Assembly: GCA_001829185.1 (NCBI GenBank)
Contig: MIAR01000006.1
Coordinates: forward strand, 1-56,737
Direction: 5' to 3'
DNA from: Spirochaetes bacterium GWB1_60_80
Lineage (GTDB): Bacteria > Spirochaetota > Spirochaetia > Treponematales > UBA12059
DNA: 56,737 bases
The notes under the pieces were generated by a model, which searched no databases, was not told the origin of the DNA, and saw only the letters and a program-made list of their open reading frames with translations. How positions within the stretch are numbered: position 1 is the first letter of the stretch; the number at the start of each line of letters is the position of its first letter. The translations under genes and the position numbers were made by a program. Of the stretch, positions 5,836-45,062 are shown in pieces.

Positions 5836-6850
5836 CACCCTGTATGTCATGACCCAAGGCGCATATTTGAAAAAAGAAGGTGAGGCCGTCAATGTCTTAA
5901 TAGAACGGCAATCCAAGCTCAAACTTCCGTTGGTTTCGATCCAGTCAATTGTTTGCTTTGGCGATATTATGGTTAGCCCTGCGCTTATGGGGCATTGCAC
6001 GAAATCCGGAATTTCGATGTGCTGGCTTAGTTTTTACGGAAAATTCATCGCGCGTGTAGAAGGGCCAGTGCACGGTAATATCCTGTTACGGCGAGCGCAG
6101 TATAAAATTACCGAGTGTCCGGAGAAATCCATCTCTATAGCCAAAGCGGCCGTGGCGGCAAAAATAGCCAATGCCCGAAGCGTTTTGGTACGCGCACTTA
6201 AAGATCATCCTGCAATGGAACATGCTGCATTGGTGGATGACACCCAACAAGCTCTCAAACGGGCGGTTCAACGGGTATGGCGCGAGTCCGATATTGATTC
6301 ACTACGCGGTATAGAGGGGGACGCGGCCAAATCCTACTTTGGAGTTTTTAATGAATTGATCACTACTCAGAAAGCCGATTTTAACTTTTCTGACAGAAAT
6401 CGACGACCACCGCTTGATAGAGTCAATGCGCTACTTTCTTTTATCTATGTGATGCTTGCGAATGATATGCGGTCAGCCTGCGAAGTAGTAGGACTCGATC
6501 CTCAAGCTGGTTTTTTTCACGTCGATCGACCAGGAAGAATGAGTTTGGCACTTGATTTGATGGAAGAATTCAGGCCCTTTTTTGCCGACAGGTTGGTGTT
6601 ATCCCTGATCAACCTGAAGCAAGTAACTGGCAAAGATTTTGAGGTTACGGGAGCAGGCGCTGTGCTTCTCAATGAAAAAGGTAGAAAGACGGTTGTAGCC
6701 GCTTATCAGGCAAGAAAGCAGGATGCGATAACCCATCCATTTCTTGGTGAGGAAATGCATATCGGTATTCTTATGTTGGTTCAAGCCCAATTACTAGCGA
6801 GGCATCTGCGAGAAGACTTAGACGGGTATCCGGCCTTTTTCTGGAGGTGA
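5819..6850 (+). CDS. cas1: Cas1 integrase, type I-C
   Basis: 343 residues from the ATG at 5819, chosen because GGAGG lies 6 nt upstream and Cas1c proteins begin MKxLLNTLYV. An upstream in-frame start at 5789 lacks such a site. Cas1 is the integrase that inserts spacers at the leader end. The metal ligands expected in the family are present: Glu166 (RGIEGDAA), His234 (FFHVDRPGR) and Glu249 (LDLMEEFRP). The gene overlaps cas4 by 17 bp and precedes cas2 by 3 bp. It looks intact. Confidence 0.95.
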   Translation: MKRLLNTLYVMTQGAYLKKEGEAVNVLIERQSKLKLPLVSIQSIVCFGDIMVSPALMGHCTKSGISMCWLSFYGKFIARVEGPVHGNILLRRAQYKITECPEKSISIAKAAVAAKIANARSVLVRALKDHPAMEHAALVDDTQQALKRAVQRVWRESDIDSLRGIEGDAAKSYFGVFNELITTQKADFNFSDRNRRPPLDRVNALLSFIYVMLANDMRSACEVVGLDPQAGFFHVDRPGRMSLALDLMEEFRPFFADRLVLSLINLKQVTGKDFEVTGAGAVLLNEKGRKTVVAAYQARKQDAITHPFLGEEMHIGILMLVQAQLLARHLREDLDGYPAFFWR

Positions 6851-6853
6851 GGC

Positions 6854-7141
6854 ATGATGGTATTGGTGAGTTATGATGTAGCCCGCGATGACCATGGGGC
6901 GCGTCGTTTGCGAAAAGTCGCCAAGACGTGCCAGAATTATGGGCAACGTGTCCAGTATTCCGTTTTTGAATGTTTGGTCGCTCCTGATCAGTTTGTGCGG
7001 CTAAAACATGAATTGTTAGAAATAATGGCCGACGAGTATGATAGTATTCGGTTTTATCTCTTAGGAGCCAATTGGAAAAATAGGGTAGAACAATATGGGG
7101 TAAAAAAAGCGCTTGATCCGGAAGGAACTATGATCATCTAG
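6854..7141 (+). CDS. cas2: Cas2, adaptation complex subunit
   Basis: 95 residues, standard length. The ferredoxin-like start VLVSYDVARDD carries the conserved Asp8, and RVQYSVFEC is the usual central strand. GGAGGTGAGG precedes the double ATG (6854/6857). Cas2 bridges two Cas1 dimers. The gene ends 165 bp before the first repeat, so the leader lies directly downstream of it. Confidence 0.95.
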   Translation: MMVLVSYDVARDDHGARRLRKVAKTCQNYGQRVQYSVFECLVAPDQFVRLKHELLEIMADEYDSIRFYLLGANWKNRVEQYGVKKALDPEGTMII

Positions 7142-7306
7142 CTACGCGAACCCTAAGCGCACAATACTAATCCAATCCACTGTTTTTATTAACTCTATTT
7201 CAAGTAATGCTTTACGCTTGAGGTGTTTTTGCCCTTTACTATATTACCTTAGGTTCGCGAAAAGTAGACTATAGATTTTTATTTGAAAAGGAATTACTTT
7301 GATCGG
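7142..7306 (+). promoter_or_regulatory. CRISPR leader with candidate array promoter
   Basis: AT-rich 165-bp stretch between cas2 and the first repeat, with no ORF. It carries a plausible promoter, TTGAGG (7218-7223), a 16-nt spacer and TATATT (7240-7245), which would start transcription about 55 bp before the array. An inverted pair, CGCGAACCCTAA (about 7145-7156) and TTAGGTTCGCG (about 7249-7259), brackets the promoter and might position integration or host factors. The leader role follows from its position next to cas1-cas2. The promoter and motif assignments are inference. Confidence 0.75.
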
Positions 7307-10300
7307 GTCGCCTCCTTCGCGGGGGCGTGGATTGAAACCTGTTCGCGGGCACTTACGGCACCAAGCTCACGGTCGCCTCCTTCGCGGGGGCGTGGATTGA
7401 AACGCTGCTAAAATAACCACATCCTCTGGAGAGTGAAGTCGCCTCCTTCGCGGGGGCGTGGATTGAAACTGTTATAGTTTGTTTATTACTATCATAGTAC
7501 AATAGTCGCCTCCTTCGCGGGGGCGTGGATTGAAACATTTATCATCCTTTGCGTTCTTTGGCAAACAGTAGTCGCCTCCTTCGCGGGGGCGTGGATTGAA
7601 ACTCCTTCGCGCAGAAAGATGTAGCGCGGTTCAAGTCGCCTCCTTCGCGGGGGCGTGGATTGAAACAGTTTGTATAGCTTGAATTGCATCTACCATTGAA
7701 CGTCGCCTCCTTCGCGGGGGCGTGGATTGAAACATTACCATACACATCTAATACTTTAATTGTAAAGTCGCCTCCTTCGCGGGGGCGTGGATTGAAACTT
7801 CCATAAAAGCATAATCAACATGATCTTGTACATGTCGCCTCCTTCGCGGGGGCGTGGATTGAAACTTTAGCGCTCATGCCTAACTTAGACTGCATAAGCG
7901 TCGCCTCCTTCGCGGGGGCGTGGATTGAAACATGTCATCCAGCGCCGTGTCTACGTTGCCGTTAGTCGCCTCCTTCGCGGGGGCGTGGATTGAAACAAAG
8001 AAGCCCCCGTTTCGTGCATCGGGGTGTTGCAGGTCGCCTCCTTCGCGGGGGCGTGGATTGAAACTAGATAAGCTCGTATCCGGTATTATGTCTTCCGTGT
8101 CGCCTCCTTCGCGGGGGCGTGGATTGAAACAAGGAAAGCGTAAACTGGAAAGGCTGAGCAGCCATGTCGCCTCCTTCGCGGGGGCGTGGATTGAAACCGC
8201 AAGAACAGGTTCTGCGAAAAACAAATACAGATGTCGCCTCCTTCGCGGGGGCGTGGATTGAAACCGCCAGCGCTGGCAAGGTCTTTGTCAGGCAGCCGGG
8301 TCGCCTCCTTCGCGGGGGCGTGGATTGAAACTTAACAGGGATACCGCCTATACGTTAAAAGATTACGGTCGCCTCCTTCGCGGGGGCGTGGATTGAAACG
8401 TCTTTGGATTATACGCTGCCACGGTACTGGAGCAGTCGCCTCCTTCGCGGGGGCGTGGATTGAAACCGCTTATACTGTACACGGCCGCATGGCTGGCGCG
8501 GGTCGCCTCCTTCGCGGGGGCGTGGATTGAAACCGTCTACCGTGCATTCGGCGGTCATGGCAGCGCTAGTCGCCTCCTTCGCGGGGGCGTGGATTGAAAC
8601 ACATCCATTCCGGGTCGGCGTATTTGTAGCCGGCGTCGCCTCCTTCGCGGGGGCGTGGATTGAAACGGCAAGGCGTGGACCCGGAAAGCGAAGCGCTGCA
8701 GGTCGCCTCCTTCGCGGGGGCGTGGATTGAAACCAAGGTACGGGAGGCCCGCGCCATAGAAGATTCGTCGCCTCCTTCGCGGGGGCGTGGATTGAAACTT
8801 TTAGCACGCTCACGCCGCCCTCCTATTAAAAAGTCGCCTCCTTCGCGGGGGCGTGGATTGAAACAGCAACGACGCCATGTCACGAAGCTCTGCTACTTGT
8901 CGCCTCCTTCGCGGGGGCGTGGATTGAAACGCAGTAGAAGAAAGTTCCGTTTTCAGATTGTCGAGGTCGCCTCCTTCGCGGGGGCGTGGATTGAAACCTG
9001 ATAACTCGGAAACAAATGCGCGTAAACTGTTTGTCGCCTCCTTCGCGGGGGCGTGGATTGAAACCCCACCACAGTCACCGTCCCCCAAGCTTGTGCTTGT
9101 CGCCTCCTTCGCGGGGGCGTGGATTGAAACTATTCGGGAAGGGCGGATTCGAACCGCTGTCTTCCGTCGCCTCCTTCGCGGGGGCGTGGATTGAAACCAG
9201 GACATACCCGGTTAGCCCGGGCGAAGCACTGGTCGCCTCCTTCGCGGGGGCGTGGATTGAAACAATTCCTGATGTAGCGTGACGATGGCTTGCATCCAGT
9301 CGCCTCCTTCGCGGGGGCGTGGATTGAAACTTGCAATTGGTATAGATACTGTATTAATAATCAAAGTCGCCTCCTTCGCGGGGGCGTGGATTGAAACTTC
9401 GGTACATATATACAAAGAAAATATTCTCCAAGTCGCCTCCTTCGCGGGGGCGTGGATTGAAACCTTTAACAGTTAATTCAACTTCATCACCCGCAACGTC
9501 GCCTCCTTCGCGGGGGCGTGGATTGAAACTTGAAAAGGCAATACTTACTATGCTCGGAGTTGTTGTCGCCTCCTTCGCGGGGGCGTGGATTGAAACCTGC
9601 CATAATATGTCCACCATGATAGGCTGATGATGTCGCCTCCTTCGCGGGGGCGTGGATTGAAACCCTAAAAGAGCAGCCGTTGCCAAAATAATGCGGGTCG
9701 CCTCCTTCGCGGGGGCGTGGATTGAAACATCTGGATTGGGAGAGTTTATAGTGTAAGTGGGTGTCGCCTCCTTCGCGGGGGCGTGGATTGAAACACATTC
9801 GAGGTACTCGGTCTTGCCGGTGTTGTCGAGTCGCCTCCTTCGCGGGGGCGTGGATTGAAACGTCTGTAATAAGTAAATCAGGCCGCTTTACCAGCTGTCG
9901 CCTCCTTCGCGGGGGCGTGGATTGAAACAAGAAGTCGGCTGACCTATACGGCACCTGCATGCAGTCGCCTCCTTCGCGGGGGCGTGGATTGAAACAGTAT
10001 CTCCATAACCCTCGCCCGCCAGCTCCCTGGTCGCCTCCTTCGCGGGGGCGTGGATTGAAACTCGGCTCGGCGGAGAATCCCAGCGCAAGCCTTCGGTCGC
10101 CTCCTTCGCGGGGGCGTGGATTGAAACCCAAATCCGGCCGGCCAGGTAAATAGCGACGGGCTGACGTCGCCTCCTTCGCGGGGGCGTGGATTGAAACAAG
10201 CCTACCTGGATTGTCTGGGAAAACGTGCCCGGGTCGCCTCCTTCGCGGGGGCGTGGATTGAAACCCGGTGGCTCGCCTGGGTCGCCGTTTTTGGTGTAGT

Positions 10301-26149: not shown

Positions 26150-26278
26150 CAGGGTGTTGAAAAACGCGAATGCGGCTTTTCAACACTTCAATAACTAGTA
26201 CAATTACGCAGCATAGCGCAAGCTATGCGAGGAATTGTTAAGGTTGTTGGGAAAGCAACCGGCTTTTTCAACAACCTG
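26150..26278 (+). mobile_element. 129-bp MITE, copy A, with CTAA target duplication
   Basis: Termini CAGGGTGTTGAAAAACGC and, inverted, CAGGTTGTTGAAAAAGCC. CTAA is duplicated exactly at 26146-26149 and 26279-26282. The element is built of three consecutive hairpins: a left one (GTGTTGAAAA/TTTTCAACAC), a central one (GCATAGC/GCTATGC inside an ACAATT/AATTGT stem) and a right one (GGTTGTTG/CAACAACC). There is no ORF, so it must move in trans. It disrupts copy 2 of the duplicated module just after the small ORF, and the stop codon of that ORF lies in the target duplication. Confidence 0.9.
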
Positions 26279-27599: not shown

Positions 27600-27890
27600 C
27601 CAGAGCGTCACACCCCAGTCCAACCCGCCGCAACATCTAGCAGGGTGTTGAAAAACGCGGATGCGGCTTTTCAACACTTCAAAAGCCGCTAGCAACCCGC
27701 CGCGACATCCAGCACCTCACGACGCGAAACCAACCACCCCGGCCAGCCGTCGCCAGCCGCGACATCACAGCCCCTCACGTCGCGAAACCAACACTCCCGG
27801 CCTGGCGCAGCCAGCCGCGACATCACAGCACCCACGGCGTGAAACCTTCCAACCCCGCGCATGCTTACCCTGGGCAGCCGCGACGCCGCG
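27600..27890. repeat. Imperfect 58-bp tandem repeats, interrupted by a MITE piece
   Basis: Units of about 57-58 bp start with CCAGCCGCGACATCACAG and continue to GCGAAACC and a cytosine-rich tail. Two near-complete units and a third partial one lie at about 27697-27870. A degenerate unit precedes the MITE fragment at 27641. No convincing ORF crosses it. The array sits between the toxin-antitoxin promoter and the AAA ATPase terminator. Confidence 0.6.
27641..27688 (+). mobile_element. 48-bp left-end piece of the MITE (copy B), flanked by CTAG
   Basis: Identical to the first 48 bases of the 129-bp element, from CAGGGTGTTG through the first hairpin to AAAAGCCG. CTAG follows at 27689-27692, matching CTAG at 27637-27640. 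Either the rest was deleted inside the element, or a single-hairpin form moved on its own. Confidence 0.8.
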
Positions 27891-34782: not shown

Positions 34783-34811
34783 TTGCGTTCCGTTTTGGGT
34801 CGTAGTATAGT
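34783..34811 (+). promoter_or_regulatory. Promoter of the ion-channel gene, leaderless candidate
   Basis: TTGCGT (34783-34788), exactly 17 nt, TATAGT (34806-34811). The ATG at 34819 begins 8 nt after the -10 box, at about the predicted transcription start, and has no Shine-Dalgarno sequence, so the transcript may be leaderless. Confidence 0.65.
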
Positions 34812-34818
34812 GGATGGC

Positions 34819-36847
34819 ATGAAAACCACCCTCAAGGCGCGCCTGCGCTACAGTTTCGACTTGTTCATATCCAAGGGCACCGGCTCGCTCATCCTGGGCC
34901 TGGCCGCCATCTGTCTAGCAGGGTGTTGAAAAACGCGGATGCGGCTTTTCAACACTTCAAAAGCCGGTACAATTACGCAGCATAGCGCAAGCTATGCGAG
35001 GAATTGTTAAGGTTGTTGAGAAAGCAACCGGCTTTTTCAACAACCTGCTAGTGCTGGTTCTGGTGGCCGGCTTGGTCTTGACGCTGTTCCAGATCGCCAG
35101 CGGCGACGGCCAGACCTTCGGCCTGGTGGAAGCCCTCTGGCAGGCCTTGATGCGGACCATCGACGCCGGCGCCGTGACGGCTGACTCCGGCTGGCAGTTC
35201 CGGGCCGTCATGTTCGTGGTTACCCTAGGCGGCATCTTCATTCTGAGCGCTTTGATCGGCATCCTCAACACCGGCCTGGAAGCCAGTATCGACGAACTGC
35301 GCAAGGGCCGCTCCATCATCGTCGAGCAGCGTCATACCGTTATCCTGGGCTGGAACGACGACATCTTCGCCGTGCTGGAACAACTGATCCAGGCTAACGC
35401 CAACCAGCGCCGGGCCTGCGTCGCCATCCTGGCCCCCAAGGACAAGGTGGAGATGGAGGACGAACTGCGCGAACGGCTGGGAAAAACCCGGACCACGCGC
35501 CTCGTCTGCCGAACCGGCAACCCGCGCGACGCCGCCGACCTGGCCATCGTGGCCACGGAGCGCAGCCGCTCGATCATCATCATGTCGCCGCGCAACCAGT
35601 CGGCCGACGCCGAAATCATCAAGACGCTCCTGGCCATCACCGCCCGGCCGCACCTGGGAGGCGCCTACAACTGCGTGGCCGAGATCCGCGATCCGCGCAA
35701 CCTGCACCCGGCCGGAATCGCCGCCCGCGGCCAGGCCCAGATCGTGCTGGTCGGCTCGATGATATCGCGTCTGGTGGCCCAGACTTGCCGCCAGTCCGGC
35801 TTGTCCATCGTTTACGAAGGGCTGCTGTCCTTCGCCGGCGACGAGCTGTATTTCGCCGCGGTGCCAGCCCTAATCGGCTTGAGCTATGCCGAGGCCATCA
35901 ACAAATTCCGCACCAGCTCTATCATCGGGCTGGTGCGGCCCGACGGCGTGCCGCAGGTCAACCCGCCGGCTCACACCCGTATCGAGCAGGGCTGGCAGGT
36001 CATCGCCATCAGCCAGGATGACGACACCGTGCTGCCCGACGCCGGCGTCTTCAAGCTGAACCTGGCGGCTATCGCCGCGGTTGAGGCCGGCGATGCGGCG
36101 GTACGCGAGGATATTATCTTCGTCGGCTGGAACTGGAAACTGCCGCAAATTATCCACGAGCTGGACGCCTACGTCGGTCCGGGCTCGCAGGCGCTGGTAC
36201 TGGGCGCCAACCAGGCCGGCGCCCAGAAGCTGGCGGCCCTCCAGGGAAGCCTGCACACCTTCGGCGCGGTCGAATACCGCCAAGCCGACATCACCGACCG
36301 CTCGGTACTCGAAGCCTTGCCGCTGGCCAGCGCCAGCCATATCGTGGTACTATCGAACTCCGAGGATTTCGATCCGGACGAGGCCGATGCCCGTACCCTG
36401 ATCGCCCTCTTGCACCTGCGCGACCTGGCCCGCCTCAACGGCTACCGTTTCTCGCTGACCAGCGAACTGTTGGACACCCGCACCCAGGAACTGGCCAGCA
36501 TCGCAGAAGCCGACGATTTTATCGTCAGCGACCGCCTGATCGGCCTCTTGCTGGTCCAGATCGCCGAGAACCCGGCGCTCAACGCCGTCTTCACCGACCT
36601 GTTCGACCCGGACGGTTCCGAAATCTACTTCAAGCCCATCGAGGACTACATCAAGCCCGGCCTGGCCGTGGACGGCTACACCGTCTACGCGGCGGCCACC
36701 CGCCAGAACCAGAGCGTCATCGGCTGGCGCCTGCAGCAGGACAAGTCTGACGCCAGCCGCAATTACGGCGTCTACATCAATCCGCACAAGGATGGCATGG
36801 TTCAGTTCGCGCCTGGCGACAAGCTGATCGTCCTGTCAGAGGACTGA
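34819..36847 (+). pseudogene. CASTOR/POLLUX-type ion channel, interrupted by a MITE in TM1
   Basis: The original frame starts at ATG 34819 (KARLRYSFDLF, then a hydrophobic helix) and is broken at 34915-35051 by MITE copy C, which brings a stop (TGA at about 34928). Deleting one CTAG and the 129-bp element (133 bp) rejoins the frames exactly. The result is one continuous transmembrane helix, AAICL-VLVLVAGLVL. The remainder has the hallmarks of the family: a second membrane segment after the pore-like stretch, then two RCK-like Rossmann modules (VILGWNDDIFAVLEQL and IFVGWNWKLPQIIHEL). The restored protein would be about 632 residues. The part from ATG 34994, which lies inside the MITE, is open and encodes 617 residues with an altered N-terminus, so some product may still be made. 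Confidence 0.85.
34919..35047 (+). mobile_element. 129-bp MITE, copy C, inside the channel gene, CTAG duplicated
   Basis: Full element with the same three-hairpin structure as copy A. CTAG is duplicated at 34915-34918 and 35048-35051. It adds 133 bp, not a multiple of three, and carries stops in the host frame. Its central ATG (34994) opens a frame that runs into the downstream channel sequence. Confidence 0.95.
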
Positions 36848-44373: not shown

Positions 44374-44502
44374 CAGGTTGTTGAAAAAGCCGGTTGCTTT
44401 CTCAACAACCTTAACAATTCCTCGCATAGCTTGCGCTATGCTGCGTAATTGTACCGGCTTTTGAAGTGTTGAAAAGCCGCATTCGCGTTTTTCAACACCC
44501 TG
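44374..44502 (-). mobile_element. 129-bp MITE, copy D (inverted)
   Basis: Full element in the opposite orientation to copies A and C, between TTAG (44370-44373) and TTAA (44503-44506), a one-base-mismatched YTAR duplication. It lies just after the Ala/Lys-rich gene and ends 19 bp before the GTG of the small membrane protein. Confidence 0.92.
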
Positions 44503-44933: not shown

Positions 44934-45062
44934 CAGGTTGTTGAAAAAGCCGGTTGCTTTCTCAACAACCTTAACAATTCCTCGCATAGCTTGCGCTATG
45001 CTGCGTAATTGTACCGGCTTTTGAAGTGTTGAAAAGCCGCATCCGCGTTTTTCAACACCCTG
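44934..45062 (-). mobile_element. 129-bp MITE, copy E (inverted), TTAA duplicated
   Basis: Full element with perfect TTAA duplication (44930-44933 and 45063-45066). It differs from copy D by one base that I can see (ATCCGCG against ATTCGCG). It lies between the membrane-protein gene and the M28 peptidase gene. Confidence 0.95.

Follow-up and report, generated by a model that had tools for sequence, protein, structure and literature searches.

A MITE from a high-copy family splits a CASTOR/POLLUX-like channel gene, probably as a young, damaging insertion rather than a switch

A short repeat interrupts the gene of a putative ion channel within its first membrane helix in the window (the whole 56,737-nucleotide stretch of DNA analysed here), and this raises the question of whether the locus is a reversible switch, a gene that has acquired a new start or simply a broken gene. 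The original prediction held that a MITE splits the helix, that its excision restores the gene exactly and that the gene could be phase-variable. The splitting itself is borne out by the reading frames, the domain matches and the uninterrupted homologues. Positions 34915-35051 consist of CTAG, 129 bp and a second CTAG, and removing 133 bp (the element plus one CTAG) yields one unbroken frame. The insertion length of 133 bp given in that prediction therefore holds as the stretch whose removal restores the frame, while the element itself measures 129 bp, to which one 4-bp duplication is added. In the interrupted gene, the native frame from ATG 34819 runs through CTA GCA GGG TGT TGA and reaches its stop at 34927-34929. 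From 34919 to 36847 the channel frame stays open, and its first ATG, at 34994, lies inside the MITE; this codon, described as the only one able to open the rest of the gene, is indeed the first start in frame, but GTG 35051, GTG 35063 and TTG 35072 are further in-frame candidates. The features of the locus are listed in Table 1.

Table 1. Coordinates of the channel gene parts and of the inserted element, in window positions.
Feature	Position	Strand	Basis
-10-like box(es) TAGTAT/TATAGT, 7-10 nt before ATG 34819; putative leaderless promoter of the intact gene	34803..34811	+	
5' fragment of the channel gene, with native ATG and 33 native codons, followed by AGC from the MITE and stop TGA 34927	34819..34929	+	N-terminal motif RYxFD conserved in homologues
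Left target-site duplication CTAG	34915..34918	.	sequence; YTAR duplications at other copies
129-bp MITE, three hairpins, without transposase coding capacity	34919..35047	+	
Left terminal hairpin of the MITE (TGTTGAAAA...TTTTCAACA)	34924..34957	+	predicted fold; covarying alignment
Weak promoter-like match TTTTCA-16-TACAAT in the MITE	34946..34973	+	1 found vs 0.2 expected; not significant
Central hairpin GCATAGC-GCAA-GCTATGC, 3' arm holding ATG 34994	34979..34996	+	predicted fold
Remaining open frame, 617 codons from the MITE ATG (MRGIVKVVEKATGFFNNLL + channel)	34994..36847	+	
Right terminal hairpin of the MITE	35010..35046	+	terminal arms, predicted fold; covarying alignment
Right target-site duplication CTAG	35048..35051	.	
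3' part of the CASTOR/POLLUX-like RCK channel gene, intact	35051..36847	+	PF06241, PF22614; CASTOR/DMI1 structures; homologue alignment

The downstream frame matches PF06241 (Castor_Poll_mid, 1.5e-26) and the RCK domain PF22614 (5.8e-10), and the product of the host gene matches the solved gating-ring structures of CASTOR (E 5e-96) and DMI1 (1e-89). Judged from these matches, the host gene appears to encode a CASTOR/POLLUX-type RCK channel, whose fold is already evident from CASTOR, and it is single-copy, with one match in its own genome. Within the taxonomic family, four homologues (60, 58, 47 and 31% identity) are uninterrupted from the start through helix 1. An aromatic-x-[FLVWQIYM]-[DE] motif, RYxFDN in most, occurs in the expected upstream range in 75 of the 78 testable GTDB homologues, so that a family naturally starting at 34994, the observation named beforehand as speaking against a split gene, is not what these homologues show. 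The modal distance from this motif to the residue encoded at 35051 is 23 residues, as it is in the rejoined gene, where the native N-terminus reads MKTTLKARLRYSF... Since the homologues are uninterrupted and carry the N-terminal motif at a matching distance, the upstream fragment MKTTLKARLRYSFDLFISKGTGSLILGLAAICL is best read as genuine coding sequence and the insertion as derived, the empty site being in all likelihood the ancestral state. The channel family also seems to be leaderless, with a TANNNT box 6-7 nt before the ATG and no visible Shine-Dalgarno sequence in three homologues (L070-L072).

The 129-bp element qualifies as a MITE and duplicates a 4-bp YTAR target. All the features of bacterial MITEs that were tested are present, namely short length, inverted repeats, target duplication and many dispersed near-identical copies. 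The terminal inverted repeats have 28-nt arms that are 86% complementary, and none of the six frames is long, the element being short and devoid of a transposase gene. Together with one duplication, it has a predicted fold of three hairpins (-60.1 kcal/mol, z = -7.1). An Rfam search with the MITE gave no match, and a search for plasmid relatives found none. Its ends are shared with an IS5-family insertion sequence in the viral contig IMGVR_UViG_2848978059 (L213 6239-7777, transposase 6314-7414, NCBIfam transpos_IS5_4), as would be expected of an IS5-derived MITE. The 19-base left end, CTAGCAGGGTGTTGAAAAA, is identical in the two, the inverted right end has one mismatch, and the insertion sequence likewise interrupts a gene and has CTAG on both sides (L213 6235-7781). 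In contrast to the MITE, this insertion sequence is autonomous, measures 1.5 kb and comes from an unrelated record, and no relative of its transposase was found in the genome that carries the split channel gene. We class the MITE as being of the IS5-end, YTAR-target type.

A first whole-genome search returned at least about 40 MITE copies at 99-100% identity, and the exact 19-base half-site (YTAR plus the end pattern) occurs 310 times in the genome (161 + 149), compared with 0 occurrences of a reversed control pattern. The copy statistics rest on about 1.9 Mb of genome stretches plus other loci, in which 106 distinct 129-bp copies were found. Near-identical copies of the element number well over a hundred. 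The tetranucleotides to the left and right are identical for 99 of the 106 copies (53 CTAG, 19 TTAG, 16 CTAA and 11 TTAA). An IS200/IS605-type mechanism, hinted at by the terminal hairpins, was rejected because the tetranucleotides on the two sides vary together, as those of a genuine duplication do. As 78 of the 106 sampled copies are identical to the one in the channel gene, and as none of the 599 codons downstream of it has lost its open frame, the insertion there is probably recent. Genic copies, assigned by coding-potential scoring of the rejoined flanks, number 9 of 106, whereas the distribution of YTAR sites in the same sequence would put about 49% inside genes (binomial P ~2e-19). This depletion suggests that genic insertions are avoided or removed and that the insertion in the channel gene is likely young; the pattern is that of harmful insertions, although it could partly reflect insertion preference instead of selection.

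The window holds further full-length or near full-length copies at 26150-26278, 44374-44502 and 44934-45062, one of which has unequal flanks (TTAG/TTAA). Elsewhere, three copies spaced exactly 422 bp apart (L084 3555-4527, C11) suggest a tandem duplication that includes the MITE. An identical copy interrupts the gene of a P-type metal ATPase (L089 4529-4657, which is C35:4529-4657, - strand; NSAIKELLN|LVPTSALVV), its orientation and codon phase matching those of the copy in the channel gene, and another copy (L034 1506-1634, C10:49121 region) lies in sense direction and CTA|G phase just past the signal peptide of what is predicted to be an exported protein. Both genes were named from their sequence and not by family search.

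Five other genomes (G005, G011, G014, G017 and G051) carry relatives of the MITE that fall in its length class, measuring 136-138 bp when both duplications are counted. In alignment A3 (window 34915-35051, L185, L186, L193, L208, L183, L190, L203, L206 and others), sequence divergence has left the three-hairpin fold in place, with both bases altered in 14 of 42 pairs and 43 compensatory cells compared to 13.8 in shuffled alignments, none of 500 shuffles reaching 43. Compensatory changes have thus preserved this fold in at least five genera. Much shorter single-hairpin derivatives of 38-48 bp were also observed, at 27641-27688 in the window and at L084 6626-6673, L091 6767-6814, L285 3079-3126, L310 1731-1775 and L093 2440-2477. 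Each is flanked by its own 4-bp duplication (CTAG, CTAA or TTAA; for the one in the window, CTAG at 27637-27640 and 27689-27692). Because each has its own target duplication, these derivatives look like separate transpositions and are apparently mobile units of just one hairpin.

Taken together, these results make it probable that the allele is a young, damaging insertion rather than a switch, and that it makes no normal channel. A 129-bp non-autonomous element with IS5-type ends would have transposed recently into the sole CASTOR/POLLUX-like channel gene, entering it at a CTAG (codons CTA|G) within the part for the first transmembrane helix and duplicating CTAG, with a transposase acting in trans placing it there. 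Ribosomes starting at ATG 34819 would stop after 36 residues, and starts at 34994 or at the later GTG or TTG codons would give, at best, low levels of a truncated channel that lacks half of helix 1 as well as the conserved cytoplasmic stretch at the N-terminus. The allele is most likely loss-of-function or strongly reduced. Against this reading stand the 599 downstream codons, which are all open and without decay, so that a product might yet be synthesised and be under selection, the hydrophobic first helix that a MITE-started protein keeps, and a weak promoter-like match upstream of the MITE ATG.

The same observations bear on an alternative that we regard as unlikely, in which the MITE provides a new start at ATG 34994, perhaps with its own promoter (TTTTCA-16-TACAAT), for a functional channel that begins with the MITE-encoded residues and would yield the MITE-derived peptide MRGIVKVVEKATGFFNN. 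The 617-codon frame is compatible with it, and the hydrophobic helix is retained, with a maximum 19-residue Kyte-Doolittle mean of 2.57 for the MITE-started protein compared with 3.13 for the rejoined one. In addition, 6 of the 9 genic copies, including those in the P-type ATPase (C35:4529) and the exported protein (C10:49121), lie in sense direction at the CTA|G phase, the only arrangement that lets the MITE ATG open the remainder of the gene. Such an insertion always joins the frame of the MITE ATG to that of the gene, because the target is YTAR and the element ends in ...CTG CTA|G. However, 74% of the genic CTAG sites have this phase and half of the insertions are expected in sense, and against this background the bias is not significant (P = 0.07; 0.02 at a looser threshold), remaining suggestive only of selection for MITE-started proteins. 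Moreover, ATG 34994 has no Shine-Dalgarno-like sequence within the preceding 20 nt and sits in the 3' arm of a stable predicted hairpin (GCATAGC-GCAA-GCTATGC), and the near-universal cytoplasmic RYxFDN segment at the N-terminus would be lost. Improbable to a greater degree is the extension of this idea to the whole family, that the MITE is a portable start-codon cassette whose strict YTAR target and fixed exit phase let sense CTA|G insertions re-open genes at the MITE ATG and survive preferentially. If this were true, the channel, the P-type ATPase and the exported protein would share the MITE-encoded N-terminus (MRGIVKVVEKATGFFNNLL).

Phase variation, in which precise excision by a trans-acting transposase would restore the channel in part of the population, we consider very improbable. 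Removal of the 133 bp is exactly in frame and the near-identical copies indicate a recently active family, but the in-frame restoration holds for any insertion with a target duplication. The part of the original prediction concerning exact restoration is thus correct as to the unbroken rejoined frame and says nothing about excision. Nor did the searches lend support to a switch. No empty allele was seen in the one genome of the species, no excision product was found, and solitary ends considered as excision footprints were rejected as truncated copies or 38-48-bp single-hairpin derivatives, not empty sites. Searches of the genome with PF01609, PF05598, PF13751, NF033581 and the L213 protein gave no IS5-type transposase match, and its sole PF13586 protein (C43:93154) is not flanked by MITE ends. 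A co-resident parent transposase, usual though not strictly required for an IS5-derived MITE, was therefore not found in this genome, and none of the six genomes carrying the family, the five other carriers included, yielded an IS5-type transposase with MITE ends. The assembly is about 96% complete, and it is possible that a multi-copy transposase gene is missing from it.

Misplacement of a repeat into the channel gene during assembly is scarcely credible: the MITE is a very high-copy repeat and runs of N break two other copies (L088 14501 and L233 1695), but the clean CTAG duplication on both sides and the exact frame restoration fit a true insertion and not a misassembly. The least probable reading is a +1 ribosomal frameshift in the overlap at 34919-34929, which would produce the whole channel plus an insert of some 44 residues, since the downstream frame, although open from 34919 across the whole element, is one open frame of 43 codons and unremarkable by chance, there is no recognised +1 slippery sequence, and the insert would fall in the middle of helix 1.

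The reading of the allele as a young, probably damaging insertion makes this a clear but ordinary gene disruption, in which the insertion is confirmed and the mechanism is an ordinary one. It is a clean, recent example of disruption by a MITE from a little-studied, high-copy family, and it illustrates that exact in-frame restoration must not by itself count as evidence for a switch. The features of the family, with its cross-genus three-hairpin fold, single-hairpin derivatives and no visible transposase, raise the testable question of what mobilises it.

The closest published element is MITEPsy1 of Pseudomonas syringae pv. phaseolicola, which is about 100 bp long, without coding capacity and tentatively derived from IS5, duplicates 4 nt of target (CTAG or YTAA) and was mobile in an entrapment assay (PMC3189936). 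The two elements are alike in size class, lack of coding capacity, link to IS5 and target duplication. They differ in their terminal repeats, those of MITEPsy1 being GGAAGGTCTGAAAAAGCC, and in abundance, with six copies there and well over a hundred here; conservation of the fold, as seen in the present family, is not reported for MITEPsy1 in the available text on it. MITEs that break genes or create frame fusions are already known (PMC10969869, PMC4853749). The Chunjie MITE of Geobacter uraniireducens and the hupL MITE of Thiomargarita nelsonii are likewise high-copy and interrupt an operon or a gene, and for the latter no parent element was identified in ISfinder (PMC10969869, PMC4853749); both differ from the present MITE in size, ends and target duplication. 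On the side of the host protein, the comparison with CASTOR and DMI1 (POLLUX) is limited in that the protein is bacterial and its N-terminal membrane region lies outside those structure chains. Finally, the Rickettsia palindromic elements are also palindromic repeats of about 150 bp found in genes with translatable frames (PMC10969869), but they stay in frame as internal peptides, whereas the present MITE shifts the frame and adds a stop.
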